A DNA stretch of 64,000 bases, taken from Bacteroides sp. GTDB lineage: Bacteria; Bacteroidota; Bacteroidia; Bacteroidales; Bacteroidaceae. The notes under the pieces were generated by a model. The model did no database searches and was not told where the DNA came from. It was given only the letters and a program-made list of their open reading frames with translations. The stretch covers positions 1-64,000 of the forward strand of contig JAFUNS010000008.1 of assembly GCA_017472925.1 (NCBI GenBank), read 5' to 3'. A program made the position numbers and the translations under genes. Shown in pieces: positions 5,557 to 28,597 of the stretch. Positions within the stretch are counted from its first letter, which is position 1; each line of letters starts with the position of its first letter.

Positions 5557-6411
5557 TTACGGTAAAGTAATAATAATTACTCCATCAGCTGTTGTATAGT
5601 TCCAACCACCAACGCCGTCAATATAATAATAAGGTGCAAGGAAAGCTGTTTTTTCATTATACCATCTACTCTTGCTTGGATCCAAGCCCTTAAATGCTGT
5701 TGCAGGATAAGCAATAATATCTTGTCCGGCAACTGCTTCATAATTAACACCAACGGCTATTGGATTAAAGCCGATAGTGTTATCGCTGTTAGTCCAGAAT
5801 TCTACATATTCACATTGCTTACCATTTCTCCAATCACCCCATTCACCATCATCATTCTTCATCGTTGCTGTATATGGATCCATGGCACGATATACTTCAA
5901 ATCCTTCTGCTTGCATAATTTCAACAGGATATGCAACACCTGAAATGAAATTATCCACATAAGAACCTGTACCTAAAGAAATCCAGTTATAATTCTTAAC
6001 CATGGTGATAGTAGAAGTAGCATTACCTGAAACAGAAACATTTTCTTCCGCAATAGAAAGCACTGCTTTATATTGGAAACCAATTTCCATGTTTCCTACA
6101 CTAAATGTATATACTGCCTTATTACTTCCTTCTTCAAAAGTTACAGATTCTGCACCACTTAAGATCTCAGAATTAAACTTGGCTGTAATCGGTAATGTGA
6201 CAGTACCGTTAGTATTGCTTCTAAGAATTTCGACTTTTACTTCTGTCAATGTTTCAGACGCTTCAATACTGTATTTAGAAGCAGCTTGAACAAAAGAATA
6301 CTTTTCGGCTTCTTCTATATACTCATCCCAATATTCGCCTTCGCTACAGCTTGCAAACATTGATGTGATGGCAAGCAAAGCCATGAATATAATTGAATGT
6401 TTTAATTTCAT
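5557..6411 (-). CDS. Surface lipoprotein of the left Sus-like operon
   Basis: A 284-residue lipoprotein: hydrophobic N-terminus followed by the lipobox FASC (Cys 22). The body looks all-beta, with a Calx-beta/Ig-like stretch at about 45-140 and a C-terminal half rich in Trp and Tyr (WGDWRNG, WYNEKTAFLAPYYYIDGVGGW), as often seen in surface glycan-binding lipoproteins. It is third in the operon, 27 bases after susD, the place where SusE/SusF-like binding proteins normally sit. No enzymatic motif is seen. It corresponds in position to the lipoprotein at 17798 in the mirror operon, although the two are not close in sequence. Expression should depend on the state of the inversion switch. Confidence 0.7.
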   Translation of the reverse strand: MKLKHSIIFMALLAITSMFASCSEGEYWDEYIEEAEKYSFVQAASKYSIEASETLTEVKVEILRSNTNGTVTLPITAKFNSEILSGAESVTFEEGSNKAVYTFSVGNMEIGFQYKAVLSIAEENVSVSGNATSTITMVKNYNWISLGTGSYVDNFISGVAYPVEIMQAEGFEVYRAMDPYTATMKNDDGEWGDWRNGKQCEYVEFWTNSDNTIGFNPIAVGVNYEAVAGQDIIAYPATAFKGLDPSKSRWYNEKTAFLAPYYYIDGVGGWNYTTADGVIIITLP

Positions 6412-6438: not shown

Positions 6439-8046
6439 TTAATTGTCTGCAACCGGAGATGGAGCAGTCAATGTAGGATTAGTATCGTGACTCAACATCG
6501 GATTAGCTTCGATTTCAGAGTTAGGTATCGGGTACACCAATACAGGATCACCAGCTGGAATGTTGTAAACGAATGCAGCTTCGAAACCTGCGCCACGACG
6601 ATCGATAGGTTTCTTCAAACGCATAATATCTGCATATGAGAATCCTTCACCCCAGAGCTCAATACGACGTTGTTGCCAAACTGCTTCCTGTACGCCTTCC
6701 GGAGAAGATGCCAAACAAACATAAGCCGGGTCACGATAAGTAGAAACGAAATTCTGCAAAGTTGCAGCTCCTGCAGAAGCATTGCCAGACATAGCTTGCG
6801 CTTCAGCAAGAATCAAATACATTTCTTCTACACGCATCAAAGGAATGTCGTTAGCATTTACAGATGTATATGTTTCATTGTTATAGCAACCATATTTTAC
6901 TTGTATATATGGAAGCGGATTCTTGTTATCATCCAAAGCTGCGCTTGAAATGTAAGCTTGTTGTTCTGCATTCAAATTGGCCGACAAACCTTTTTCATTT
7001 AACCACCAACCTTTACGAACATCAGTTTCAGGAATAGAATTATACAATGATTTGCTGATTGTACGCCATGCGCCTACTGAAGCATAACCATAGTTCAACG
7101 AACCCATGTGAGAAGGGAAATTACAGATACCGGTCTCAACAACGTCATCTGTTTCGGCTATCAATACACCCCACATCCAAGAAGGCGCTTCAATGTCACC
7201 GAAAGTAGGTACACTTACTTCTGCAATGCTATATGGTTGTCCATCATGCAATGATATTGCCTTCTGTGCATCCGAAGCTGCATCAGCCCAATTGTTCATC
7301 ACCAAATTTACACGAGCACGCAAACCATAAGCAACAGCTGCATTGATATAACGTTTGTCATCTCTTTCCTTTGTAGAAGATTCAAGCAAAGTAATTGCTG
7401 TGTTCAAGTCGGTCATAATCTGAGCATATACTTCTTCTACTGTTGCACGTGGACAACCATTAGAAGCCACTTCATCTGCATTCAAGTCTGTAATCAATGG
7501 AACACAAGGCTTACTCTCATTGCCTACATATGTATGCTGGTACAATTGTGCCAATGTAAAATAGTCAAATGCACGAGTAGCCAAAGCCTGTGCCAAATAG
7601 AATTTCAAAGAATTATCTTCAGTTGCCGGGTCTACAATCTTGGCCAATGAGTTAGCTGCATAAAGTTGCTTGTAAATGGTACGCCAAAACAAATTGGTAC
7701 CAACTCCGGTTGGAGAAATGTCTGAATATGTAACAGCTGAAGCAAACCAGTTGTAACCAATTGAAGTCGAAACAAAATCCATACCTCTGGTATCGGTCCA
7801 CAACATGATAGCTGCATAACCAAAATCATTATGATAACCAGTACCAATAGCGTTACCAAACTGGTTGGCCATAGCAGGAACTGCTGATACAGTTGCTTCA
7901 ATACGTTCTGGATTCGAAGCGACTGTTTCAGATTTTTGCTCACTCGTAATGGTAGAGCCCATCGGTTCTGTATCCATATCGTTACATCCAACAAGCAGAA
8001 CGCTTGCCAATGCCGATGCGATAAATTTGAATTTTATATTTTTCAT
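6439..8046 (-). CDS. SusD/RagB-like nutrient-binding lipoprotein (left)
   Basis: A 535-residue SusD-family lipoprotein with lipobox LVGC (Cys 21). The N-terminal half carries the TPR-like helical repeats of the family (ATRAFDYFTLAQLYQHTYVG, followed by AAVAYGLRARVNLVMNNWADA), and the C-terminal part has the usual conserved ending (QQRRIELWGEGFSYADIMRLKKP, then YPIPNSEIEANP). It caps the SusC channel at the cell surface and binds a glycan or peptide ligand; the ligand cannot be read from sequence. It begins 19 bases after susC. Because the susC upstream has lost its 5' end and promoter, this gene is probably not expressed in the orientation shown. Confidence 0.92.
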   Translation of the reverse strand: MKNIKFKFIASALASVLLVGCNDMDTEPMGSTITSEQKSETVASNPERIEATVSAVPAMANQFGNAIGTGYHNDFGYAAIMLWTDTRGMDFVSTSIGYNWFASAVTYSDISPTGVGTNLFWRTIYKQLYAANSLAKIVDPATEDNSLKFYLAQALATRAFDYFTLAQLYQHTYVGNESKPCVPLITDLNADEVASNGCPRATVEEVYAQIMTDLNTAITLLESSTKERDDKRYINAAVAYGLRARVNLVMNNWADAASDAQKAISLHDGQPYSIAEVSVPTFGDIEAPSWMWGVLIAETDDVVETGICNFPSHMGSLNYGYASVGAWRTISKSLYNSIPETDVRKGWWLNEKGLSANLNAEQQAYISSAALDDNKNPLPYIQVKYGCYNNETYTSVNANDIPLMRVEEMYLILAEAQAMSGNASAGAATLQNFVSTYRDPAYVCLASSPEGVQEAVWQQRRIELWGEGFSYADIMRLKKPIDRRGAGFEAAFVYNIPAGDPVLVYPIPNSEIEANPMLSHDTNPTLTAPSPVADN

Positions 8047-8065: not shown

Positions 8066-11000
8066 TTAGAATGTTAATTTGATACCACCTGAAATTGTAC
8101 GCATTGCCGAATATGTATCACCACTGGTACCTCTAAAGCCTTGACGTGGATCCATACCCTTACGAGTAGAGAATAAAGCTACATTATCAGCTGCCGCATA
8201 AAGACGGAGAGACTGAATATGCAAACCGCGTGTCCAGTTCTTCGGTAATGTATATCCCAAAGTAATATTATTAATTGACAGGAAGTTGGAAGATGTCAAC
8301 CAACGATCTGAAAATTCGTATGTATACTTATCGCTACGGTTGATGCGAGGAACATCAGTATTCGGATTTTCCGGTGTCCATGCCTTGGCAATATCTGTAT
8401 GCCAGTTTTGACCGGCATAATAGCTGTCACCATTATGCATCAATGCTTGATAAGAGTAGTCAAAAATCTTACCGCCCAATTGATAAGCCATTTGGATAGA
8501 GAAATCGAATCCATAGAAATCAAGGCTGGTACCGAAACCACCATATACGGTTGGAAGCAAGTCTTCTGTAGCTTCACGGCCGTTAGCATAAGCTAAATCA
8601 TAATTGGAGGTAGTGTACCATTCCGATTTGAAAGCAGCTTTTTCTTCATCAGTTGCATCTGCTGCAGGAACAGTCTTGGTCCAATATAATGCATTACCAG
8701 TAGCAGCATCTACACCGGCATACTTCACAATATAGCTACGGTACATACTTTCACCTTCTGTATAGATGGTAGAGCCTGAAATCCATTCGCCTTCCAATGC
8801 CGGATCCAATTCATTAATCTTATTCTTAGAGAATGTAGCATTACCAAACAATGTCCACTTCAAATTCTTAGTTTCAATTGGAGTATAGCTCAATTCAATT
8901 TCCACACCGCTATTAGTCATACTGCCGATATTGACAGGGATGGAGCTATAACCGTTTGAGTTAGCAACAGGTTTTGAATACAACATATCAGAAGTCTTAC
9001 GACTGAAGTATTCGATAGTACCACTCAACTTGCTGTTGAACAATGTAAAGTCAACACCAGCATTGAAAGCATTACTCTTTTCCCATGTCAAATCCTTATT
9101 ACCTTTGTAAACTAAAGTACCATCTGAGAACACACCATTAGCACCAGTAACAGAATATTGATCAAGATATGCATAATTGTTACCAATACGGTCGTTTCCT
9201 TGCTGACCATAAGAAGCCTTCAACTTCAAAATATCAATCCACGCTACATCTTCCAAGAATTGTTCTTTATTGATAACCCATGCAGCAGAAGCCGACCAGA
9301 AGTTACCCCAACGATTGTCCGGATGGAAACGAGAAGAAGCATCACGACGATATGAGAAGCTACCATAATACTTTTCTGCATAATCATAGTTAATACGGCC
9401 AATAATACCGCGAGTTGAATATTCTGTACGAGAACCGCTACCACGTTTCTGGTCGATAGTATTATTTACTGTAAAGTCACCTTCCTTATATAAATTCTGT
9501 CCGGAAGCACCACTGGTCTCGTAGCGATAGTCATAGCTTTCATAACCAGCCAATACGTCAAAGTTATGGTTACCGAAGCTCTTGCGGTAAGTTGCCAAAT
9601 ATTGTTGGTTAAATCCTGTTGTATGATAATGATACTGATAAGCATAACCACCATAGCTTGCAGACTGACCATACTTAGAGTTACCAATAGCATGATAACG
9701 AGTATTATCAACAGTAAAGCCGTATGATGCGGTTAACTTCAAGCCTTCCAACGGAGAAAGTTCTGCATACCATTTACCATTGAATATATCCATTAAGTAC
9801 TCTTCTGTATTGTAAAGTAAGTCACCCATAGGGTTTGACATTGACATCCAGTTACGTGTTCTACCAGTTTGACCATTACCATAATCGTAAATAGGAAGGC
9901 CGCTTGCTGAATCATAAGCCATAGAACCGTCTGCATTACGTTGATACATCGGATAAACCGGTGCAATCATGTGAGCCAAATTAAAGGCATTTCCAGAAGA
10001 ACTACCGTTAGTTTGTTCATCCGGATAACGACTCTTTGAGTTGATATAACTCATGTTGGCACCAAACTTCAACCACTTCTTTGCTTGATAGTCTACATTC
10101 AAACGAGTAGTAATACGGTCAAATCCTGAATTTTCAATGATACCACCATCTTGCAAATAACCTGCAGAGAAGTAATAATTAATACGGTCAGAACCACCTG
10201 ATACACTCATGTTGTATTCTTGACGCATTTCGCTACCAATCATTTCTTTGTCCCAATTATCCGGAGTATAGTAATATTGGCCATCGTTGTAACCCAATAC
10301 GGCATTTGGATTCACCTTACCATCCATACCAATCAATCCTTCACCTTGAGGCAATGTATAGATAGGATAACCAATAGCACCAAACAAATTACTATTTGCA
10401 TATGCGTGAGCTGCATCAGCAGTATAGCCCAATGTTTGCAAACCTTCATTTTTAATGGCTTGATACAATGTTTCCATATAAGTATCGGTATCCTTGATTA
10501 CATCATACTTGCCAACCATACGTGAATTCACACCCCAACGAGCATCAAGCGTAACGCGAGCATCACCGTTTTGTCCTTTTTTAGTGGTCACCAAGATTAC
10601 ACCATTAGCACCACGAGCACCATACAAAGCAGCTGCAGCAGCATCCTTCAATACAGTCATGGTTTCAATATCCTGAGTATTGATAGAAGAAATATCACCT
10701 TCAAAAGGAATGCCATCTACTACATAAAGAGGGTCGGTATCCACACTACTATTCATAGAACCGATACCACGGATGTAAACTTTAGCTGATTCCCCAGGTT
10801 GACCATTATAACTAACAGTCTGCACACCGGCAACTGAACCAGACAAAGCATTTGTCAAGTTAGACACCTGACGCTTTTCCAACTTATCTGCCTTTACCAC
10901 TGAAGCCGAACCTGTAAATGCAGACTTCTTAGCAGTACCATAAGCCACCACCATCACTTCATCAAGAACCTCTGTATCAGCACTTAATACAATAGAAAGT

Positions 11001-11077
11001 GTTGGTTGAATCTTCACTTCCTGAGTATGCATACCAATGAAGGAAACCATCAAAGTTTCCGCCGAACTATGCAGCAT
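8066..11077 (-). CDS. SusC-like TonB-dependent transporter, 5'-truncated silent copy
   Basis: The frame encodes 1003 residues from the first available ATG, but lacks the signal peptide and most of the CarboxypepD_reg-like domain that begin every SusC. It opens directly inside the conserved SSAETLMVSFIGMHT stretch, then continues normally: DEVMVVAYGTAKK, plug domain (VYIRGIGSM, VVDGIPF, AAAALYGARGANGVILVTTKKG) and a full beta-barrel to the terminal Phe. The 44-bp repeat at 11025-11068 covers codons 4-18. Upstream DNA in the same frame is unrelated and soon hits a stop, and no promoter is visible. As it stands the product could not be exported. Inversion with the copy at 13301-13344 would give an intact in-frame receptor of about 1067 residues. 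It is therefore a silent partner and not a dead gene (inference). Confidence 0.85.
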   Translation of the reverse strand: MLHSSAETLMVSFIGMHTQEVKIQPTLSIVLSADTEVLDEVMVVAYGTAKKSAFTGSASVVKADKLEKRQVSNLTNALSGSVAGVQTVSYNGQPGESAKVYIRGIGSMNSSVDTDPLYVVDGIPFEGDISSINTQDIETMTVLKDAAAAALYGARGANGVILVTTKKGQNGDARVTLDARWGVNSRMVGKYDVIKDTDTYMETLYQAIKNEGLQTLGYTADAAHAYANSNLFGAIGYPIYTLPQGEGLIGMDGKVNPNAVLGYNDGQYYYTPDNWDKEMIGSEMRQEYNMSVSGGSDRINYYFSAGYLQDGGIIENSGFDRITTRLNVDYQAKKWLKFGANMSYINSKSRYPDEQTNGSSSGNAFNLAHMIAPVYPMYQRNADGSMAYDSASGLPIYDYGNGQTGRTRNWMSMSNPMGDLLYNTEEYLMDIFNGKWYAELSPLEGLKLTASYGFTVDNTRYHAIGNSKYGQSASYGGYAYQYHYHTTGFNQQYLATYRKSFGNHNFDVLAGYESYDYRYETSGASGQNLYKEGDFTVNNTIDQKRGSGSRTEYSTRGIIGRINYDYAEKYYGSFSYRRDASSRFHPDNRWGNFWSASAAWVINKEQFLEDVAWIDILKLKASYGQQGNDRIGNNYAYLDQYSVTGANGVFSDGTLVYKGNKDLTWEKSNAFNAGVDFTLFNSKLSGTIEYFSRKTSDMLYSKPVANSNGYSSIPVNIGSMTNSGVEIELSYTPIETKNLKWTLFGNATFSKNKINELDPALEGEWISGSTIYTEGESMYRSYIVKYAGVDAATGNALYWTKTVPAADATDEEKAAFKSEWYTTSNYDLAYANGREATEDLLPTVYGGFGTSLDFYGFDFSIQMAYQLGGKIFDYSYQALMHNGDSYYAGQNWHTDIAKAWTPENPNTDVPRINRSDKYTYEFSDRWLTSSNFLSINNITLGYTLPKNWTRGLHIQSLRLYAAADNVALFSTRKGMDPRQGFRGTSGDTYSAMRTISGGIKLTF
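11025..11068 (-). repeat. Inverted repeat, left recombination site in silent susC
   Basis: 44 bp, identical to 13301-13344 in opposite orientation except for one base (G here, A there, at repeat position 22). Conservation includes wobble bases and stops abruptly on the upstream side, where the two genes become unrelated. The repeat starts at the same codon boundary (AGT, Ser) in both genes, so exchange keeps the frame. Confidence 0.85.
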
Positions 11078-11334
11078 CGCAAGCTGTTGATTCTCAAGCC
11101 TTGTAATCTTTGGCGTGAAAAATAAAACACACTTTACTTGATGCAGAGATGTCTTTAGATAGGAAAGGTTCTACTCCTGTTCTACCGGAATTTTGCTTAT
11201 TTATTAAGATTTATATATCATCTCTCTCGCGCGCACGAATGAAAAAATCGTATATTCATCATACACTCTTGCACTTTTCTTTGTAAGTGATTAGTAAAGA
11301 GTTGGTTAATTTGTGTAAGATGATGTGTAAGATA

Positions 11335-11362
11335 GTGTGCAAGATGAATTCATCTTGCACAC
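11335..11362. repeat. 28-bp perfect palindrome inside the invertible segment
   Basis: GTGTGCAAGATGAA followed by its exact reverse complement. The bases just left of it repeat degenerate copies of GTGTAAGAT. It has no T-run, so a protein-binding site or cruciform is more likely than a terminator. The gene-free stretch 11078-11636 contains this, the 21-bp repeats and a run of alternating GC (CGCGCGC). Confidence 0.7.
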
Positions 11363-11465
11363 TGTTTCGTCTGTCTTCGGACGCTCCTCAAAACACTCTG
11401 CATAAAGAACAAGGCAATTAACGGTAAATCTTTCATATGTAAAGGCTTGGAATACGATTCATTTT

Positions 11466-11549
11466 ACGTTCTACATTGTAGTTTGTATGTTCTACATTGT
11501 AGTTTGTATGTTTCACGTTGTAGTCTGTACGTTTTACGTTGTAGAACGT
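11466..11549 (+). repeat. Four tandem 21-bp repeats near the recombinase gene
   Basis: Four units of exactly 21 bp (11466, 11487, 11508, 11529) on the pattern ACGTTCTACATTGTAGTTTGT. The first two differ at one base; the last two are diverged but keep the spacing. Each unit contains a short dyad (CTAC and GTAG). Two helical turns per unit puts all copies on one DNA face, which suits cooperative protein binding. The array ends 87 bases after the stop codon side of the recombinase gene. Confidence 0.8.
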
Positions 11550-11636
11550 AATGTGCATGGTGTCTTATACCCTTAGTTATTTGCTTAGGTCGCTTTATGA
11601 ATGTTCAGTTCTACCTTTGTTCTCCCTCGTTCCTGT

Positions 11637-12800
11637 TTATTTGCTCTTGGCGCATTTTTTCAAGTCTTTCACAATGGTACTTTCCATTACATCACTATAG
11701 AGTTGAGTAGTGGACAAATCACGATGACCAAGGAGCTTTTGTACCGTCGTGATATTCGCCCCTTTATATATTAATAAGGTAGCATTGGTGTGCCGGGCCG
11801 AATGAAACGAAAAATGTTTGTCAAGTCCGGCTAACTTACCAATACGAATCAAACGCTTGTTTAATGTAGAATTAGATTCTACGGTGAAAAAGAATGAAAG
11901 CCGGTTGCGGTATTTCTGTACCATCTTCCACGCTTTTCCTTCGAAGAGCAGGGTGATGGGCAGCTTTACTTCGGTATCGGTCTTTTGTGTACGGAATACC
12001 AACCAAGGAATACCTTCTATCCTCTGGATATTGTTTTCATTCAAATGGCAGAAATCAGAGTATCTTATACCTGTATAACAGCAAAACAAGAAAGCATCCA
12101 ACGTGTGAGACAAAATCGGTTTCAGGTATGTTTGGGATAGTTCTTCCAATTTCTCCATTTCATCGGGTAGGAGAAACGTATGTTTGCTATCTTTGGTTTT
12201 GATGTGGTATCTGCGGAAAGGATACTCTTCTGCTTTAACATATCCCTTGTCTATGGCGGCATTGACAAAGGATTTTAGATGTCTCATGTGCTTGGCTACC
12301 GTATTGGTCTGATTGCCGTTACAATACAGAAAGTCTTCAAACTCATAGATGAATTTGGGAGTAAGATCTCTGAATGTAATGCCTGAGCTATAGCGCATAA
12401 GCAAGTCGTAGGTGGTTAACCGGTTCTTTTGAGTACTTTCCTTTAAGGAAGAATGAACTATTTCTTTTTTCACAAATTCCAGAAATGAAGGGCTTGATTG
12501 TGTCCTAAATGCATCTCTCAATCGGTTTAATGTTACTTCATGCCCGTTTTTCCATAACTCCAATTCTTTTCTTTCTAGTTCGATGATAAAACTTTGGAGC
12601 ATTCTGTTCAGTGTGTCAGCATGAGGGTGCTTCACGATTTCATGTCTTTGTTCACACCATTGGTTGGGTGTAAGATAAATGTGCGTAGAAAAGTAGATTT
12701 TCCTTCTTTCCAAATAGGCCTCAACTTGTATAAGGGCGGTTCCTTGTGCGTTTAGCTGTTTCTTTCTGTTGTATACAGAACGATAACTGATTTTTCTCAT
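11637..12800 (-). CDS. Tyrosine recombinase, likely invertase of the susC switch
   Basis: A 387-residue integrase-family protein of the Bacteroidetes type. Residues about 1-95 are the arm-binding domain, about 105-200 the SAM-like core-binding domain, and 210-387 the catalytic domain. Visible catalytic residues are Arg246 (TGIRYSD), Lys273, His333 and Arg336 (HSARH), His359 (LGHRD) and nucleophile Tyr368. The set is complete and the length is normal, so it should be active. It lies inside the DNA flanked by the inverted 44-bp repeats and points away from the intact susC, with 299 bases between the two starts. That position, like the local recombinases beside other Bacteroides invertible regions, makes it the obvious invertase. 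Direct evidence for its target is lacking. Confidence 0.88.
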   Translation of the reverse strand: MRKISYRSVYNRKKQLNAQGTALIQVEAYLERRKIYFSTHIYLTPNQWCEQRHEIVKHPHADTLNRMLQSFIIELERKELELWKNGHEVTLNRLRDAFRTQSSPSFLEFVKKEIVHSSLKESTQKNRLTTYDLLMRYSSGITFRDLTPKFIYEFEDFLYCNGNQTNTVAKHMRHLKSFVNAAIDKGYVKAEEYPFRRYHIKTKDSKHTFLLPDEMEKLEELSQTYLKPILSHTLDAFLFCCYTGIRYSDFCHLNENNIQRIEGIPWLVFRTQKTDTEVKLPITLLFEGKAWKMVQKYRNRLSFFFTVESNSTLNKRLIRIGKLAGLDKHFSFHSARHTNATLLIYKGANITTVQKLLGHRDLSTTQLYSDVMESTIVKDLKKCAKSK

Positions 12801-13029
12801 GATGTTTGGGTTTACAAGATTTATAAAATGGTTGTTAACACTTATATGTTAAATAGTATTTCATACAAGAAACAATATTTGACAAACCTTTCAATGCTAA
12901 AGTATAAAAACGGAATATTTATAAGGGAATTGCGTGGTTTTTGTTATAAATAGACGTTGTAAAGCATAAAAATCATTCGTTTTCATGCTTTTTTTAAAGA
13001 TTCGTATTATAAGTTTAAAAAAATATTAA

Positions 13030-13037
13030 TACCTTTG
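13030..13037 (+). promoter_or_regulatory. Promoter -7 box of the intact susC operon
   Basis: TACCTTTG, a full -7 match, 62 bases before the ATG. The -33 element is not clear in the AT-rich DNA before it. It lies inside the invertible segment, so it would be redirected to the left operon after inversion. The ATG is preceded by a purine-rich stretch (AAGAGAGAGAA). Confidence 0.6.
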
Positions 13038-13099
13038 CCGTTTGTTAGAGTGAATGAATTTATATTAAATGTAAAGTTAAACTTTAAGAGAGAGAATTT

Positions 13100-16000
13100 A
13101 TGAAAAGAAAATTAATGCTGTTGATGACCTGCCTATTTATAGGTATAGGTCTGGTAAACGCGCAGATTTCGAAGGTGACAGGTACTGTTATCTCGGAAGA
13201 AGACGGTTTGCCTGTAGTTGGCGCCTCTATCGTCGTAAAGGGTACTACTTTAGGTACTGTTACTGACATGGATGGTAAGTTTACATTAACGAATCTTCCA
13301 AGTTCGGCGGAAACTTTGATGATTTCCTTCATTGGTATGCATACCATGGAAGTAAAAATTGAGCCTACACTTACCATTGTATTGAAGGCCGACACTGAAA
13401 TGCTTGATGAAGTGATGGTGGTTGCTTATGGTACTGCCAAGAAATCATCTTTTACTGGTTCAGCCTCAGTAGTAAGAGGTGAAAAGATTGCCAAGATGCA
13501 AACATCCAATGTATCAAAATCATTGGAAGGAGCAATGGCCGGTGTACAAATTTCACAAAGTTCTGGCCAGCCGGGCTCTTCAGGTACAATTTACGTACGT
13601 GGTATCGGTTCAATCTCTGCAACAAAATCAGCTTTGATTGTTGTTGACGGTGTACCTTATGAAGGAAATTTGAACCAGATTGCTCCAAGTGATATCGAAT
13701 CAATGACTGTATTGAAAGATGCTGCCGCCAACTCCCTATATGGTGCACGTGGTTCGAATGGTGTTGTCTTGATTACCACCAAGAAGGGACAAAGCGGTAA
13801 AGTAAAGGTCACTTTCGAAAACCGTACCGGTGTCAATATGCGTGGTGTACCCGAATACGATTTCTTGACCGATCCTCAAGAATATTATGAATTATACTGG
13901 GAATCAATGCGTAACCAAGCTGTATTCAGCGGTAAATCATATTTGGAAGCTGGTAAATATGCTTCTGATAACTTAATCAAGAACTTAGGTGGTTATAACA
14001 ACTATAATGTAGCCGACAATCAGTTGGTTGACCCTATTACAGGGCGTTTGAATCCAAACGCAAAATTGTTGTATCACGATGATTGGTTGGACGAAGCATT
14101 CCGTCCGGGTATGCGCCAGGAAAATGTCATTTCTTTGAGCGGTGGTACAGAAAAGACACAATACTATGCTTCTCTTGGCTATTTGTATGACAACTCATAC
14201 ACTGTAAATTCAGACATGAGCCGTATCAATGCTCGCGTTAAAGTTGACCAAGAAGTTAACAAATGGTTCAAGGCTGGATTTAACTTGGCTTACAGCAACG
14301 TAAAGACCAATTCTCCGAATGTAGGTGGTACCAATTATTCTTCTATCTTCTACTTTGGACAAACCATTGCTCCTATCTATCCAGTATATATGTACGATGC
14401 AAATGGTAATAGAATGTTTAATGATCAAGGAGAACCTCTTTACGATTATGGGGTAGACATGGGTAAACGTCCGGTTGGTGCAAATGCTCATCCTATTGCT
14501 CAACAATTATACGACATTTACGAAGGAAATGCTGACGTAATCAACGCTAAAGCTTACGCAGAATTCTCTTTCTTGAAAGACTTTAAATTTACTGTCAATG
14601 CAAGTATAGATAACTTCAACAGCCGCACCGTTGACTTCCAGACACCTATAGGTGGGGATGCTGCCAATGTAAAGGGTCGTAGCACTGTAGAAATGAGCCG
14701 TTACTATGTACTGAATGCCAACCAAATCTTGAATTGGTCGCATACTTATGCTGATTTACACAATGTAGAAGTGATGTTGGCACATGAAACAAAGAACGAC
14801 AAAAGCCAAAATGTATGGGCTCGTAAAGAAAACTTCCTGGTTCCTGATAATCCGGAATTGGGTAATGCCGCCAAGTTAGGAGATGCAAGTTCTGCTTCAG
14901 TAGAATATGCATTGGAAGGATACTTCGGACAGGTTAAATATGACTTTGACGAAAAGTATTATTTCTCTGCAAGTTATCGTCGTGATGCCTCTTCACGTTT
15001 CCATCCGGACAATCGCTGGGGTTCTTTCTGGTCTGTAGGTGCATCTTGGAGAATCAACAAGGAAAAATTCATGAAAGACATTGCCTGGATTAACGACTTG
15101 AAGTTTAAAGCCAGCTACGGTACTCAAGGTAATGACGGTTTGACTAATAACCAGCCTTACTTGGATCAATACCAAGTAGTTCCAAACGGTGGTGAAATTG
15201 GTATCAACTACATATTCCGTGGTAACAAGGACATTACTTGGGAAAAGAGTAAGAGTTTCAACACAGGTTTTGAATTCCGTTTCTGGGATCGTTTCAGCGG
15301 TATTGTAGAATACTTCCGCAAAGACACACGCGACTTGCTTTACGCCAAGCCTTTGCCACCGTCACAAGGTGTACCTTCAAGCATTTACGAAAATACCATG
15401 TCAATGCGTAACGAAGGTTTCGAATTAGAATTGTCTTATGACATTTTCAAGCAAAACAGCTTCAAGTGGAGCGTTGCTTTGAATGCTACTCACTATAAGA
15501 ATGAATTGCTCGAATTGCCAGCTGACCGTCCACAAGACGGATGGGCTACAGGTAGCTATTTCCGCAAGATAGGCAAACCGCTCTATAATTACTATGATTA
15601 TAAATTTGCCGGTGTAGATCCAGAAAATGGTGACGCATTGTATTGGGCCGACGACAAAGACGAGAACGGTAATATTATCGGTCAGAAGAAAGTGGTAGGA
15701 ACTACATCTGCCACTCGTTATGAATTGGACAAGTCTCCAATCCCTGACTTGTACGGTGGTTTCTCTACCAACCTTGAAATTCACGGATTTGATTTTGCTG
15801 CTAACTTCGCATACCAATTGGGTGGCTATGTATACGACAGCCAATATAGTTCATTAATGAATTCAGGTGACGCTGGAAATAACTGGCATAAGGACATTTT
15901 CAATCGTTGGACTCCAGAAAACCGCTACACCGATGTTCCACGTTTGCAAGAAGGTTCTTTGGACCAAAGTGTAAGCGGTGACTATAGCTTAACTTCAGCA

Positions 16001-16222
16001 TCTTATTTAAGCCTCCGCAATATCACTTTAGGATACACTCTTCCTAAGTCATGGTTAAGCAAGGCTAAGATTGAAAAATTACGTCTGTATGTAGTGGGCG
16101 ACAACATGTTCCTTGTTTCTGCACGTAAAGGTTTTGACCCTCGCCAATCCTTCACAGGCTCTACCGGTTACAATTACTCTGCATTGCGCACAATTTCATT
16201 CGGTATAAACATGGAATTTTAA
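13100..16222 (+). CDS. SusC-like TonB-dependent transporter, intact (right)
   Basis: A complete 1040-residue SusC-family outer-membrane transporter. Signal peptide 1-22 (ending VNAQ), CarboxypepD_reg-like domain about 26-95 (VTGTVISEEDGLPVVGASIVVKGT), then DEVMVVAYGTAKK and the plug (IYVRGIGSI, VVDGVPY, AAANSLYGARGSNGVVLITTKKG) before the large barrel ending in Phe. It forms the active pore, with SusD as its lid, and takes up a ligand using TonB energy. Codons 68-82 lie in the 44-bp repeat shared with the silent copy. Residues after the repeat are related to, but clearly different from, the left gene, so the two receptors probably prefer different ligands. SusD follows after 20 bases. Confidence 0.95.
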   Translation: MKRKLMLLMTCLFIGIGLVNAQISKVTGTVISEEDGLPVVGASIVVKGTTLGTVTDMDGKFTLTNLPSSAETLMISFIGMHTMEVKIEPTLTIVLKADTEMLDEVMVVAYGTAKKSSFTGSASVVRGEKIAKMQTSNVSKSLEGAMAGVQISQSSGQPGSSGTIYVRGIGSISATKSALIVVDGVPYEGNLNQIAPSDIESMTVLKDAAANSLYGARGSNGVVLITTKKGQSGKVKVTFENRTGVNMRGVPEYDFLTDPQEYYELYWESMRNQAVFSGKSYLEAGKYASDNLIKNLGGYNNYNVADNQLVDPITGRLNPNAKLLYHDDWLDEAFRPGMRQENVISLSGGTEKTQYYASLGYLYDNSYTVNSDMSRINARVKVDQEVNKWFKAGFNLAYSNVKTNSPNVGGTNYSSIFYFGQTIAPIYPVYMYDANGNRMFNDQGEPLYDYGVDMGKRPVGANAHPIAQQLYDIYEGNADVINAKAYAEFSFLKDFKFTVNASIDNFNSRTVDFQTPIGGDAANVKGRSTVEMSRYYVLNANQILNWSHTYADLHNVEVMLAHETKNDKSQNVWARKENFLVPDNPELGNAAKLGDASSASVEYALEGYFGQVKYDFDEKYYFSASYRRDASSRFHPDNRWGSFWSVGASWRINKEKFMKDIAWINDLKFKASYGTQGNDGLTNNQPYLDQYQVVPNGGEIGINYIFRGNKDITWEKSKSFNTGFEFRFWDRFSGIVEYFRKDTRDLLYAKPLPPSQGVPSSIYENTMSMRNEGFELELSYDIFKQNSFKWSVALNATHYKNELLELPADRPQDGWATGSYFRKIGKPLYNYYDYKFAGVDPENGDALYWADDKDENGNIIGQKKVVGTTSATRYELDKSPIPDLYGGFSTNLEIHGFDFAANFAYQLGGYVYDSQYSSLMNSGDAGNNWHKDIFNRWTPENRYTDVPRLQEGSLDQSVSGDYSLTSASYLSLRNITLGYTLPKSWLSKAKIEKLRLYVVGDNMFLVSARKGFDPRQSFTGSTGYNYSALRTISFGINMEF
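13301..13344 (+). repeat. Inverted repeat, right recombination site in intact susC
   Basis: Partner of 11025-11068. It encodes residues 68-82 (SSAETLMISFIGMHT). Within the repeat only one base of 44 differs between the two genes, although flanking codons of the same conserved domain differ at many third positions, which points to conservation of the DNA itself. Confidence 0.85.
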
Positions 16223-16242: not shown

Positions 16243-17772
16243 ATGAAAATCAATAAGATATTATTACTTTCGGCCATTGCTTGCAGCTCTTTGGCAAGTT
16301 GTGGCGACGAGTTCTTTGATGTAGAAAACTCTGATGTTGCCAGCAAAGACCAGATTGACGCAATTGGCAATTCAAGCCCCGATGCCCTCATCAAAATTGT
16401 AGAACCGTTGATGTTAGGTTTGAATAACTACACCTATCAATACAATACCCAAAGCAGTTCAAATACTGTACATGAAGACTTCGGTTTGATGGGTATTTAC
16501 CACTTGGGAGATGTTATGAATGACGACTTGGCTTTTTACACACGTGGCAGCGGTTGGTTTACCTACGATTACGAATTGGACTATTGGGCAGAACAATACA
16601 AGCGTCCATTCTTCTATTGGAACTTCTTTTATTCTATCATAGCCAAATCAAACGATATCATAGCTATGATTTCTGCCGAAGTTACTGACCCTGATTTGAA
16701 AGCCTATCGTGGTGCAGCTTTAACCTATCGTGGTTTTGCACATGCATATTTGGCGCAGATGTTCCAACAAACATACATTGGCAATGAAGATGCGCCAGGT
16801 GTACCCATCGTTTTGACTCCAGCCGAAGCTGAAAATGCAGTTGCAGGCCGTGCTCCTTTACGTCAAGTATATGCACAAGTTGAAAAAGACTTTAAGGAAG
16901 GTATAGAATTCTTGGCTGGTTGGGAACGCCCTAACAAGACTATGATTGACGAACAAGTAGCCGCCGGTCTATACTCACGTATTTGTTTGGTAACAAACAA
17001 TTGGGATGATGCCATCACTTATGCACGCAAAGCACGTACCGGTTACCCAGTATACACTCCTGAAGAACTTTTGGATAATAGTGCATTTAATAATATAGCA
17101 GCAAAAGAATGGATGTGGGGTATGGACATTACAGCAGAAACCACATCAATGTTTGCTTCTTTCTTCTCATTCATGTGTTCGTATGACGCTGGTTACGGTG
17201 GTGATGTAGGTCAATACCGTATGATTGACGCACGTTTGTACAGCCAAATGTCGCCAACAGATGTCAGAAGAGGTCTTTTCAAGCACAGCGAAAGCGGATA
17301 TAGCTATACTGCACAAGAAAGTGCATTCCCTGATTACACAAACATCAAGTTCAAGAAAGTAGCAAACTGGGAAGCTGACTATGTATATATGCGTGTTTCT
17401 GAAATGATTTTGAACGAAGCCGAAGCTTTGGCACACAAGGGAGACCAAGCAGGAGCAGCTACCGTATTGAAAGAATTGATGAGCCAAAGAGACCCATCAT
17501 GGAACAAGGCATCTGTAACAGCCGATGAAGTATACCAACAACGCCGTTTGGAATTGTGGGGTGAAGGTTTCTCTTTGTTTGACCACTTACGCCTGAAGAA
17601 AGGTGTAGAGCGTAATTATGAAGGTACAAACCATTTATCAAGCGCACGCTATACCATTGCTGCAGATAGCTGGTACCTGCACTTCCAAATTCCATTGCGT
17701 GAATTGGACAATAGTGCAGACATCAGCGCAGAAGACCAAAATCCGGCACCAAGTGAAAATAAGTTTCAATAA
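16243..17772 (+). CDS. SusD/RagB-like nutrient-binding lipoprotein (right)
   Basis: A 509-residue SusD-family lipoprotein with lipobox LASC (Cys 20). Family signs are the early helical repeats (YRGAALTYRGFAHAYLAQMF and AAGLYSRICLVTNNWDDA) and the conserved C-terminal part (QQRRLELWGEGFSLFDHLRLKKG, then FQIPLREL). It lies 20 bases after the intact susC and 25 bases before a lipoprotein gene, giving the same gene order and nearly the same spacing as the mirror operon on the left. It should be expressed in the present orientation. Confidence 0.93.
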   Translation: MKINKILLLSAIACSSLASCGDEFFDVENSDVASKDQIDAIGNSSPDALIKIVEPLMLGLNNYTYQYNTQSSSNTVHEDFGLMGIYHLGDVMNDDLAFYTRGSGWFTYDYELDYWAEQYKRPFFYWNFFYSIIAKSNDIIAMISAEVTDPDLKAYRGAALTYRGFAHAYLAQMFQQTYIGNEDAPGVPIVLTPAEAENAVAGRAPLRQVYAQVEKDFKEGIEFLAGWERPNKTMIDEQVAAGLYSRICLVTNNWDDAITYARKARTGYPVYTPEELLDNSAFNNIAAKEWMWGMDITAETTSMFASFFSFMCSYDAGYGGDVGQYRMIDARLYSQMSPTDVRRGLFKHSESGYSYTAQESAFPDYTNIKFKKVANWEADYVYMRVSEMILNEAEALAHKGDQAGAATVLKELMSQRDPSWNKASVTADEVYQQRRLELWGEGFSLFDHLRLKKGVERNYEGTNHLSSARYTIAADSWYLHFQIPLRELDNSADISAEDQNPAPSENKFQ

Positions 17773-17797: not shown

Positions 17798-18625
17798 ATG
17801 AAAAAGATAAGTATAATTGCTTTAATGTTAAGTGCATTCTTTACCACTTCGTGTGAGAATGACGCTACACTTGAAGAAACAAGAGTGGCAGACATTTCGG
17901 CTCCTTCGGTGACAATGAATGTATCCGTAAATCAATATGATGCCACATTTGATATAACATTGAGTTCTCTTGGCGAACCTGCCACAAGAGAATATGGTGT
18001 AATGTATAGTACCGAATCACAACCTACAGTGGACAATTCTGTCTTTCTTGCAGCAGAGGATGTATCAACTAACAATACAAGTATAACCGTTAGTCTAATG
18101 CCGGGTACTACATACTATGCTTGTGCATATGCACTTACAGCTAATCAGATAGCTACCTCAGAAGTTAAGACGTTTACTACAGAAAAAGCTCCCGAATTCA
18201 GCGCTGAAATGTTGAATAACAGAGTATATACTGGTACAGTCACCAGTTATTTTGGAGATACATACAACTTCGAAGTAACAACTGTTGTAGACGCAGAAGA
18301 CAGCAACAAGATATGGTTCCAAAACCTTGACCCGTATTTTGCAGCCAATGGCTTCACTGCAGATAAGGGAGTTAACAGCTTCTATGGTATATTGGATGTT
18401 GAAAACAAAATGATTACATTGCCTATCGGTCAAGAAATTGGCTATAATGATGTAGCATTATATGCATTCAACACAGAAGACCCAGATACAGCGACTGGTT
18501 ACACTGACTTACAGATACAGACTGATGAATTAGGTAATATACTCATATTCAAACAAGCATGGGGTATGAACTCTTCTGGCGGATGGTATAATTTATTCTA
18601 TGGCATGACATTGAAAGCTAAATAA
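17798..18625 (+). CDS. Surface lipoprotein of the right Sus-like operon
   Basis: A 275-residue lipoprotein with lipobox TTSC (Cys 19). Residues about 35-130 read as a fibronectin type III-like fold (YGVMYSTESQPTVDN, then TYYACAYALTANQIATSEVKTF), and the C-terminal part (about 135-275) is another beta-rich domain with many aromatic residues. It closes the operon, directly before a strong terminator, in the SusE/SusF position. A glycan- or ligand-binding role at the surface is inferred from place and fold. No catalytic motif is visible. Confidence 0.7.
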   Translation: MKKISIIALMLSAFFTTSCENDATLEETRVADISAPSVTMNVSVNQYDATFDITLSSLGEPATREYGVMYSTESQPTVDNSVFLAAEDVSTNNTSITVSLMPGTTYYACAYALTANQIATSEVKTFTTEKAPEFSAEMLNNRVYTGTVTSYFGDTYNFEVTTVVDAEDSNKIWFQNLDPYFAANGFTADKGVNSFYGILDVENKMITLPIGQEIGYNDVALYAFNTEDPDTATGYTDLQIQTDELGNILIFKQAWGMNSSGGWYNLFYGMTLKAK

Positions 18626-21839: not shown

Positions 21840-23517
21840 ATGGAAAGGCAGTTTTTTATCGGCAAAATCTTGGTGAACTTTTACCTGAGAAATCCCAAAT
21901 CTTCGAAGCCTACGATGATATATATGGTGGTAAGATTTGACAAGAAGAATTATGCATTCAGCACAAGAGCAAAGGTATATCCATATCAATGGGATAGGAA
22001 TACCCAAGAAGCAATATGTGATATTGGTTTGTGTAAGTTGGATAACCTTAATAATATGAAAGCCAATAATACAATAGCTGCATTCAAAGAAAGAATCTAT
22101 CATTTGAAGACCTTCCTTTGTAATAATCCGCAAGAAATAGTATCTTTACCACGATTATTAACTGAGATGTTTGCAATTAAAATGGACCGCAAAAAGAAAG
22201 TAGATGAAACAAAGACTATAGATGTTGTTAAATTGATTGAAGAAGAAGTTTCAAAAGACGCTTCAAGGGAAGAGAGTACAAATAATAACTACTTGAAGGT
22301 AATGCCTGATTTGAGAGAGTTCATCAACCAAAGAGGTATATCCATTACGGAATATCGTCAAATGGATAATGACTTTTTTTATGAGTTTACCATTTGGTTT
22401 GCCAAAAAAATACAAAGGAAAATTGCAAGTTAGTACAGTTAATTCAAACCTGAATTATGCAAGAAGTGCCATTGTTGAAGTTGGAACCTCTTTGAACTTG
22501 CTTACGAAAACTGAAGTTAAGAATATAGTATTTGAAAGGTTTCCTGACAAGACTCCTGATAATCATATATTCCTTCGCAATCACGAAATTGTAGAGATAT
22601 ATAATTATAAACCCGAAAGTGAATTGGAAGACCAAGTGAAAGACATATTTTTAGTAGAATGTCTACTCGGTTTACGTTTTCAAGACATCGTACAAATAAC
22701 CTCGGATGCAACAAAGCAAGTACAAGGTGTAAACACCATATCCGTAAAAATCGAGAAAGTTCAAGACCCTGTAATGTTTGATTTTGTCTTTGAAATCGCA
22801 AAAGACATTATATTAAAGAAGTATGATTGCCAATTACCAAGACTTACAAACAAGAAGGTTAACAAGATAATTAAAATTATCTGCAAGAAGATTGGTGGTT
22901 CATTCAATGACAACATCACTCAATACCATCATTATATTGGAGAAGCTGAAGTTAGAAGTTCTGTTAAAAAAAAATACGACCTTGTGTCAACTCATACAGG
23001 AAGACGCACCTTTGTAACCTTGCTTGCTTTGAGAGGTTGGAATTATAATGAGATTGCACGCTACACAAGGCAGTCATTGCTAATGGTTCAACATTACGAC
23101 AAAAGCAAAGCATTACCCGCAGAAAAGAAGATTTTCGAGAACACTTATAAGAATAACCCTGAACAGATTGTTTGGCTATGCGGTGAACGGAATGACAAAC
23201 TGCCTCAACAACCACAAGTCAGAAAAACAAAAGTCAACTTTATGACAGAACAAGCCAATGGTGTAATGACAACAATTGTCAACGATGTCGATGAGGCCAA
23301 AAATGTTCTAAATTTTTTGGGTGCAGATGTTGACGAGTATCTACATATCCAAAATGTTGATTTGCTGATTCGGATGATATGCCAATATGAAAGCGAAATT
23401 ATCAAACGGTTCGGTACAAATATTGACGAGATTAAATCTATATTCAACGAATACGAGAACAGCAAACAAAGGAAACAAGCTTTACGTGCATTGGTTGAAA
23501 AAATTAAAGAGGTTTAA
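21840..23517 (+). pseudogene. Tyrosine integrase, interrupted by frameshift at an A7 run
   Basis: Two frames together make one integrase. The first (21840-22433) has the arm-binding and core-binding domains; the second (open from about 22369 to 23517) has the catalytic domain, with Arg in LLGLRFQD, HTGRRTF (His-x-x-Arg) and a terminal QHYDK tyrosine. The frame changes by +1 at AAAAAAA (22404-22410): six A instead of seven would join ...WFAK to YKGKLQVSTVNSNLNYAR. It lies next to attL, as expected for the integrase of this element. It could be a dead gene, a slipped-strand on/off switch, a programmed frameshift or a sequencing error. The LGHR-type second His box is degenerate (YTRQS), and this adds doubt about activity. 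Confidence 0.8.
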
Positions 23518-25383: not shown

Positions 25384-26022
25384 TTAGGTGCAAAATTCCG
25401 TCTTTATTCTCTGTACTGTACTAATTCCACGTTGGGAAATCTTTGCCACATTACGGACTGAATACCCCTTTTTGAGCAATTGAATAATATCTTTGTATTC
25501 CTCTTTCTTCTGTTCGGTGGTCTTAATGCTGCCTTTCTTTCTACCCACCTTACCGCCATTTGCCTTGTAATTCTTGTAACCACTTGACAAGCGGAACTGA
25601 ATGTTATCCCTTTCAATTTGGGCACAAGTAGCAAGTGTAGCCAACATTATCGGAGCAAACATTGATGGTTTACCATTATCATCCAAAAGGGTGAATTGTT
25701 CCTTTTGCATATACAAGTTAATCTTATGGTCAATGAGTGTCTTTACCGTCTCCAATACTTCAAATGAACTTCTGCCAATTCTTGAAAGTTCACTTGTAAG
25801 CAAAATATCTACCTCATTGGTGATGCAATAATCAACGGCATCTTGTAGTACGGCTCTTTCATCATTCCGCTTTCCACCACTTATGTACTCTTCGAACACT
25901 TCAACTACTTCCAACTTTGTAAACTCTGCATAAGCTTTCAAATCTGACACTTGACGTTCCGTATTCTGTCTGTTCCGTTCAATGGTGCTACTTACACGTG
26001 CGTATATAACTGCCTTTTTCAT
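25384..26022 (-). CDS. Serine recombinase (resolvase/invertase family)
   Basis: 212 residues. The resolvase catalytic domain (1-140) has YARVSS with the nucleophilic serine at 11, the ELSRIGRSS motif at about 79-87 and the closing helix (ATLATCAQIERDNIQFRLSSG). The C-terminal part carries GRKKGSIKTTEQ and a helix-turn-helix (KKGYSVRNVAKISQRGISTVQRIK). It is the small resolvase/invertase type without the large zinc domain. It may resolve multimers of the circular element or invert DNA; no target site is recognised. It is transcribed from a promoter facing that of the HTH gene, with a 350-base regulatory region between them. Confidence 0.9.
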   Translation of the reverse strand: MKKAVIYARVSSTIERNRQNTERQVSDLKAYAEFTKLEVVEVFEEYISGGKRNDERAVLQDAVDYCITNEVDILLTSELSRIGRSSFEVLETVKTLIDHKINLYMQKEQFTLLDDNGKPSMFAPIMLATLATCAQIERDNIQFRLSSGYKNYKANGGKVGRKKGSIKTTEQKKEEYKDIIQLLKKGYSVRNVAKISQRGISTVQRIKTEFCT

Positions 26023-27202: not shown

Positions 27203-28597
27203 ATGAAAAATAAGATGAAAATTGCAGCTATCAACTGTTTAAACATAAATAGTATTATCGACAAACATATAGAATTGGTTACAAATCCTGTGACCAAAGG
27301 AGAAATTATTGAAAAGGATAATAAATTGGTGTGTGTTGAAGAAGTGATTAGAGAAGCTAAAGCGGCTCCAAGAAGAAGCGTTCTATTCCATAAATATGTA
27401 TATCTATTACATTTGATTATCATTCGTTGCATAACCAACAAATCATATTCAACGCACTTGTCTTATCAAGTACTAACTGAAGTTCTTGGTAAGCATTACA
27501 CTGACATGTTACAGACATTGCACAAGATGAGAATTATAGATGTAGACACAACTTATTCTATTGGTAATCATAGCAGAAGAATTGTGTTAATTAACAAAGA
27601 TGTCAGCTTTGTTATTACAAAAAATTTAAAAGTAATAGAATATGCCAACAAAGTAGATAAATTCTTTTCGAAAAATCAAAAAAATGAATTATCAAAGTTT
27701 GATAATAATAATTTTATCAAAAATTATAATAAATCTCTTTTTTTACTTGAATTAAAAGATAAAGATGAAGCTATCAAATTCATATCAGAACTTAATTTAA
27801 AAGAAGAACAATTTAAATATTATTATTTTAAAATAGAGAGTTTTTCTTTTGATAAAAAGGAAATATATACAATAGATAAGAATAAACGTATATATCATTA
27901 TTTAACTAATTTACCAAGGCCTTTAAAATCTTTCTTTAATATTAAATTTCAATTAGATATTTCAAATTCACATCCTTTGCTTTTTTCTAAATTTATTATA
28001 GATAAATATAATATAAATCATAATATAATAAATATATTATTGTCTATATCAGTACCAACATACAAGGCCCATTATGCAGGTAAACAACTCTATAATATAC
28101 TGAATAACAATAATATACAATTCAATAAAAAAGAACTACCATTCGATTTGTTACATTTTTTGTATTCAACCTCCAAGGGTATATTCTGGGATAACTTTGT
28201 TGAATTATTCGACAACAGATTAGACAGAAGCATCATCAAACAAAGATTATTCCAAGAAGTATTCTATTCAAGGAAAAAGAAGGTTACTCGGTATAGGCCC
28301 TTTGCCAAATTATTCAGATATTATTATCCTAACGTTTGGAAACTTATCAAAGAGATTAAAAAAGATAATCCGAACGACTTACCTAACATGATGATGCAAC
28401 AAGAAAGTGGGTTGTTTTATTCTATTTTGCAAAAATGTTATGAAAAGAAATGGAAAGTAGTAAACATACATGATGCAATAATTATATTGGATGCCAAAGA
28501 GAATGATAACATTGATGTTAATGAAGTACGTAATATAATGGAAGAAGTATATACCATTAACAACCTTCATGCGACTATAGCTATTGATGAATATTAA
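27203..28597 (+). CDS. Divergent family A-type polymerase, TV-Pol-like
   Basis: 464 residues, very AT-rich and rich in Lys, Asn and Ile. Three motifs in the right order match the superfamily A palm and fingers: motif A with Asp252 (QLDISNSHPLLFS), motif B with Arg342, Lys346, Phe350, Phe354 (RSIIKQRLFQEVFY, compare R-x3-K-x3-F-x3-Y of Pol I) and motif C with His423-Asp424 (NIHDAIIIL). The preceding RIYHYLTNLPRPLK segment is also like the TV-Pol group described from transposons and phages of Bacteroidetes. There is no exonuclease domain. It probably replicates the element, perhaps by priming as well. Assignment is from motifs alone; an alternative is an inactive relative. It is the last large gene before attR. 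Confidence 0.65.
   Translation: MKNKMKIAAINCLNINSIIDKHIELVTNPVTKGEIIEKDNKLVCVEEVIREAKAAPRRSVLFHKYVYLLHLIIIRCITNKSYSTHLSYQVLTEVLGKHYTDMLQTLHKMRIIDVDTTYSIGNHSRRIVLINKDVSFVITKNLKVIEYANKVDKFFSKNQKNELSKFDNNNFIKNYNKSLFLLELKDKDEAIKFISELNLKEEQFKYYYFKIESFSFDKKEIYTIDKNKRIYHYLTNLPRPLKSFFNIKFQLDISNSHPLLFSKFIIDKYNINHNIINILLSISVPTYKAHYAGKQLYNILNNNNIQFNKKELPFDLLHFLYSTSKGIFWDNFVELFDNRLDRSIIKQRLFQEVFYSRKKKVTRYRPFAKLFRYYYPNVWKLIKEIKKDNPNDLPNMMMQQESGLFYSILQKCYEKKWKVVNIHDAIIILDAKENDNIDVNEVRNIMEEVYTINNLHATIAIDEY

Follow-up and report, generated by a model that had tools for sequence, protein, structure and literature searches.

A putative two-receptor inversion switch inside susC genes of a Bacteroides genome

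SusC/SusD systems import nutrients. Established switches acting on them are the SusC/SusD shufflons of Bacteroides fragilis, in which a tyrosine recombinase inverts DNA at repeats so that different susC/susD pairs come under one promoter (PMC5729914, PMC4747536, PMC11852207); in its region EE the repeats extend over the start codon of susC and lie downstream of an invertible promoter (PMC5729914). Phase-variable shufflons of Bacteroides thetaiotaomicron alter which nutrient receptor is expressed, and such receptor shufflons have been discussed with regard to phage sensitivity, one direct test of receptor function being negative (PMC12548429). For B. xylanisolvens, a recombination hotspot is described that overlaps a TonB-dependent receptor neighbouring a SusD gene and an integrase (PMC8042965), and metagenome analysis with PhaseFinder found orientation differences in or near SusC/SusD systems among 39 human gut reference genomes, with intragenic shufflons mentioned (PMC10939037).

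We analysed a window of 64,000 nucleotides, that is, the whole stretch of DNA at positions 1-64000 of contig C13, taken from a 79.7% complete draft assembly of 2.8 Mb in 79 contigs. A literature search gave no description of this locus among the matches listed, and a search on intragenic inversion in Bacteroides SusC gave no match.

Layout of the locus and the 44-bp inverted repeat

Two susC-susD operons were found in divergent orientation with a tyrosine recombinase gene between them, and the contig continues with other genes beyond both operons. The features of the locus are the following.

5557-6411, minus strand: left operon, third gene, resembling a lipoprotein by eye
6439-8046, minus strand: susD of the left operon (SusD-like_3 and SusD_RagB)
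8066-11068, minus strand: susC-L, headless, with plug and barrel and without signal peptide (the listed open reading frame extends to an ATG at 11077)
11025-11068, minus strand: left copy of the candidate recombination site, an inverted repeat within susC-L
11330-11367, no strand assigned: hairpin, possible terminator, between the 3' end of the recombinase gene and the left site
11637-12800, minus strand: tyrosine recombinase, the proposed invertase, of 387 aa with Arm-DNA-bind_5, SAM-like and Phage_integrase domains
13030-13037, plus strand: TAnnTTTG, promoter-like box of the head (motif)
13100-13300, plus strand: putatively mobile head, made of the signal peptide and the first 67 codons (same length in 21/21 headed genes)
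13100-16222, plus strand: susC-R, complete, with its receptor body (13301-16222) joined to the head in this assembly
13301-13344, plus strand: right copy of the candidate site, an inverted repeat within susC-R
16243-17772, plus strand: susD of the right operon, after susC-R
17798-18625, plus strand: right operon, third gene, resembling a lipoprotein by eye

A preliminary description made from the sequence alone had claimed two susC-susD-lipoprotein operons pointing apart, one susC that is complete and another that begins abruptly without a signal peptide, a complete tyrosine recombinase that lies between them and rides on the flipped segment, and a 44-bp inverted segment with one mismatch that starts at the same codon boundary in both genes. 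The gene coordinates and domain matches confirmed the two operons, the lipoprotein label being given by eye: the left third gene (5557-6411) had no Pfam or NCBIfam match, and the right one (17798-18625) had no Pfam match and a weak NCBIfam match far under the cut-off. The description of susC-R as complete and of susC-L as abrupt was borne out, the TIGR04056 match of susC-L beginning at model position 43, which falls on base 11068 at the repeat's outer edge. The recombinase proved to be full length with three domains and sits, at 11637-12800, between both sites, while the repeat was upheld by its coordinates, its frame and its sharp 5' edge.

The repeat cores are 44 bp long and identical at 43 of 44 bases, the single mismatch being located at 13322 (site column 22). 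The right core begins 201 nt past the ATG at 13100 and the left core 9 nt past the ATG at 11077; since both begin on a codon boundary, an inversion would preserve the reading frame. Similarity between susC-R and susC-L stops abruptly at the 5' side of the core, where they share none, and on its 3' side their homology continues as that of ordinary paralogues, with 44% protein identity. When up to 3 mismatches were allowed, the site was found at only two places in the 2.8-Mb assembly. Comparison of the equivalent stretch in 190 pairs from 20 SusC genes of this assembly (those above the family cut-off, including L072, which is N-terminally truncated and whose aligned stretch is meaningless) showed an identity of 97.7% for this pair, 84.1% for the next and 47.7% for the median. 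Together with the occurrence at two places only, this puts the identity of the sites beyond chance and rules out ordinary SusC conservation as its cause.

The recombinase carries catalytic-type motifs at residues 241, 333, 357 and 365, which we take to have catalytic roles, and a contig scan showed that the recombinases of Bacteroides sp. SIG135 and Bacteroidaceae RGIG1990 are 65% identical to it, which points to a host of Bacteroides type. The TAnnTTTG box upstream of the head is presumably the Bacteroides -7 box. A sigma-70 promoter scan of 11060-13310 found 2 promoters versus 6.8 expected from shuffles. A terminator scan of the same interval found 1 terminator-like site versus 1.5 expected, so the hairpin at 11330-11367 is not significant. 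An Rfam search of 10500-13700 gave no match. Two repeated stretches were also seen in the intervening segment. The one at 11243-11363 spans about 107-120 bp and includes a palindromic hairpin. It has copies that are 80-85% identical on contigs C15, C17, C73 and C21 of the same genome and is a dispersed intergenic repeat; the other, at 11462-11545, consists of a 21-bp unit in four tandem copies and resembles (80%) a stretch on contig C10.

Other recombination genes, or possible pieces of them, are present elsewhere in the window. Two overlapping open frames at 21840-23517 look by eye like integrase pieces and had no Pfam match at E <= 0.001. A resolvase-family serine recombinase gene is located at 25384-26022 and, near it, a 464-aa open frame without Pfam match at 27203-28597; together they are perhaps a mobile element.

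Headed and headless receptors in related genomes

The segment from the recombinase to the head was matched in 35 of 60 genomes, the window's own included, and 33 of these 35 belong to the same genus (36 genomes there), some of them being matched via short SusC stretches only. The comparison set consisted of 20 stretches from 19 genomes and the two named loci. Two of the stretches (L033 and L034) come from one genome and were counted as one locus, and L032, which fails the site pattern, was kept outside the counts; on separate inspection its layout proved to be the same, again with a head of 67 codons. This gave 21 loci (the window and 20 others) with 49 site copies, 21 of them headed and 28 headless.

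In each of the 21 loci just one susC was headed, that is, equipped with a promoter-like box, a signal peptide and a head, and the recombinase gene was divergent from the headed gene in all 21. Every head ran for 67 codons before the site (21/21 headed genes), and the heads of the 20 relatives showed 79-96% amino acid identity to that of the window. All 21 headed genes had the TAnnTTTG box 266-272 bp upstream of the site, and 5 of the 28 headless copies had it anywhere in the 400 bp upstream. More than one site was present within the stretch in 17 of the 21 loci; a second site was not found in the fetched stretch of the other four.

Comparison of the receptor bodies showed that 24 of the 55 pairs with at least 50% identity were in opposite states, one member being headed and the other headless; these 24 discordant pairs overlap and are not independent, and one of them lies within a single locus. 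Receptors similar to susC-R, which is headed here, are headless in L035 (58%) and L009 (52%), and receptors similar to susC-L, which is headless here, are headed in L038 (59%), L049 (58%) and L041 (53%). The preliminary description had suggested looking for the opposite state in related genomes, and homologues of both window receptors were indeed found in it elsewhere.

The synonymous-codon agreement of the site copies was 0.90 within loci (43 pairs) versus 0.565 between loci (1133 pairs), and none of 2000 label shuffles gave a within-locus agreement as high. The 90 bp located 3' of the site were also more alike within loci than between them (0.731 versus 0.614), so homogenisation extends beyond the site. 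The 60 bp located 5' of headed and of headless copies were unrelated to each other (0.28). Between loci, the head DNA was 74-99% alike and the receptor bodies 21-97% alike. Head similarity tracked recombinase similarity (rho 0.43, equalled or exceeded in 1 of 2000 permutations) and did not track that of the receptor body (rho 0.12, equalled or exceeded in 227 of 2000); these correlations cover 19 of the 21 loci, two receptor bodies being cut at a contig end.

Site columns 9-11 and 19 were variable between loci and invariant within all 17 multi-site loci, while columns 21, 22, 27 and 33 varied within 4, 4, 4 and 5 of these 17 loci, respectively, and columns 12, 16 and 18 within 4, 2 and 1. It is a fair guess from these columns that the exchange point would lie somewhere in columns 9-20, with the mismatch of the window (column 22) located 3' of it.

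Proposed inversion and competing explanations

We consider it very probable (about 0.86) that the locus is a reversible site-specific inversion switch acting inside the genes of two receptors. Because the relatives support switching, we read it as an intragenic SusC/SusD inversion switch with two receptors. The invertible switch put forward in the preliminary description is supported by the single headed susC per locus, the box at a near-fixed distance and the divergent recombinase, each in 21 of 21 loci, and by the opposite states across species. The sharp 5' boundary with its common frame, the restriction of the site to two places in the assembly, the tracking of the recombinase by the head, the within-locus agreement at synonymous codons and the nearness of sites to recombinase homologues in the genus also speak for it. 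The single assembled orientation, the four loci with no second site in the fetched stretch, the genomes of the genus that have only one of the two elements, the raised likeness 3' of the site and the overlap among the discordant pairs speak against it.

In the proposed mechanism, the recombinase encoded at 11637-12800 would recognise both inverted 44-bp sites and flip the 2232 bp between them, a segment that holds the recombinase gene and, facing away from it, one putative promoter, one signal peptide and 67 codons. The head, which is in frame with susC-R in the assembled orientation, would be in frame with susC-L after inversion, and susC-R would then be left headless. The layout, the frame, the uniqueness of the sites and the comparative pattern are directly shown. 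Each head fusion would express the susC-susD operon to which it belongs, and the headless operon would be silent. With one fusion driving one operon, the cell would therefore export mainly one of the two uptake systems. That the two receptors are never made together is likely for one chromosome; for the whole cell we only infer it.

The window was seen in a single orientation in a single assembly, as it would be if the locus were a switch by descent that is now locked in this strain, with a nonfunctional recombinase or nonfunctional sites and a silent susC-L that is kept or decaying. All reading frames are open, however, the recombinase gene encodes a full-length protein with all three domains, and the two sites still differ at a single base, so that a locked switch appears very unlikely. 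It is also conceivable that the two receptors belong to a larger shufflon of several receptors whose remaining members are missing from the draft. The completeness of the assembly (79.7%) and the presence of up to six sites per locus in relatives (G010) leave room for such members, but the contig carries other genes on both sides of the operons and no third site at up to 3 mismatches occurs in the assembly, and we regard this explanation as decidedly improbable.

The identity of the two 44-bp segments could instead be due to gene conversion between paralogous susC genes, in which case the recombinase would be unrelated to it and the 5' end of susC-L would have been deleted. The identity 3' of the site, somewhat raised within loci (0.731 versus 0.614), is in line with such conversion, whereas the total lack of similarity 5' of the site, the recurrence of the same boundary, the 67-codon head and the adjacent recombinase in 21 loci, and the finding that similar receptors carry a head in one species and lack it in another argue against it. 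We judge this account highly improbable, and we reject gene conversion as the sole cause on account of the sharp common boundary and of heads that change partners.

Spread in the genus and relation to known switches

Of the 61 genomes in the genus, 45 had a recombinase homologue (E <= 1e-60) and 39 had the strict site pattern, for which the reversed control gave no match; the pattern was absent from all 16 genomes of other genera examined. Recombinase and site occurred together in 34 genomes of the genus, the recombinase only in 11 and the site only in 5, and the draft state of the genomes and the strictness of the pattern may be behind these 11 and 5. A list of 98 sites and 55 recombinase places, transcribed by hand, showed that 79 of the 98 sites in the genus are on the same contig as a recombinase homologue, at distances of up to 3 kb for 58, up to 10 kb for 72 and up to 25 kb for all 79. 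The remaining 19 sit on separate contigs, eight of them at most 150 bases from the contig start.

Some contigs start within a few bases of a site (G002:C1:1, G003:C6:1, G027:C146:2, G065:C52:2 and G084:C152:4), and contig breaks at the site could be compatible with mixed orientations or with plain repeats alike. Arrays were also seen, with six sites near one recombinase at G010:C1:2388957-2413766 and four near one recombinase at G016:C1:3351849-3370152; in both, several sites are mutually in direct orientation, which could in principle permit deletion.

It is possible, though doubtful, that these loci make up a genus-wide family of intragenic SusC switches, apart from the intergenic shufflon of B. 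fragilis. A self-carrying head cassette, with its recombinase, divergent promoter, signal peptide and exactly 67 codons, would move among receptor bodies, and the site within the coding sequence would stay alike within a genome and drift between species.

The proposed switch would be a minimal, two-receptor form of the surface-receptor switches of Bacteroides in which the flipped segment bears its own recombinase, and a locus with two states is simpler to measure than a shufflon of many genes. With the constant head length of 67 codons and the site pattern, similar switches can be searched for by a simple rule, and the receptor that is "on" can be read from assemblies. The BT1040-BT1046 locus of B. 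thetaiotaomicron may share the same intragenic layout, and for this reason the window locus is counted with a known kind of switch.

The window locus resembles region EE of B. fragilis (invertase Tsr0667), as described in the source cited above, by its tyrosine recombinase and its alternative susC/susD pairs at repeats. Unlike region EE, it has the site within the gene, at codon 68, and the promoter, the head and the recombinase would all be on the inverting segment. Because its site is at codon 68 and its repeats are not over the susC start codon, the locus is not placed in the region EE subtype. The proposed switching of the choice of nutrient receptor is what it would have in common with the B. 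thetaiotaomicron shufflons, as set out in PMC12548429, and a proposed orientation change within or near a SusC/SusD system is its likeness to the invertible regions of PhaseFinder, as set out in PMC10939037. The window holds two susC/susD operons with one 5' end, predicted to be expressed, in common, near-identical inverted repeats at the putative exchange point and a tyrosine recombinase gene in the locus, which is also found in relatives; it is best read as related to the known Bacteroides shufflons and as a kind of surface-protein switch that is already known.
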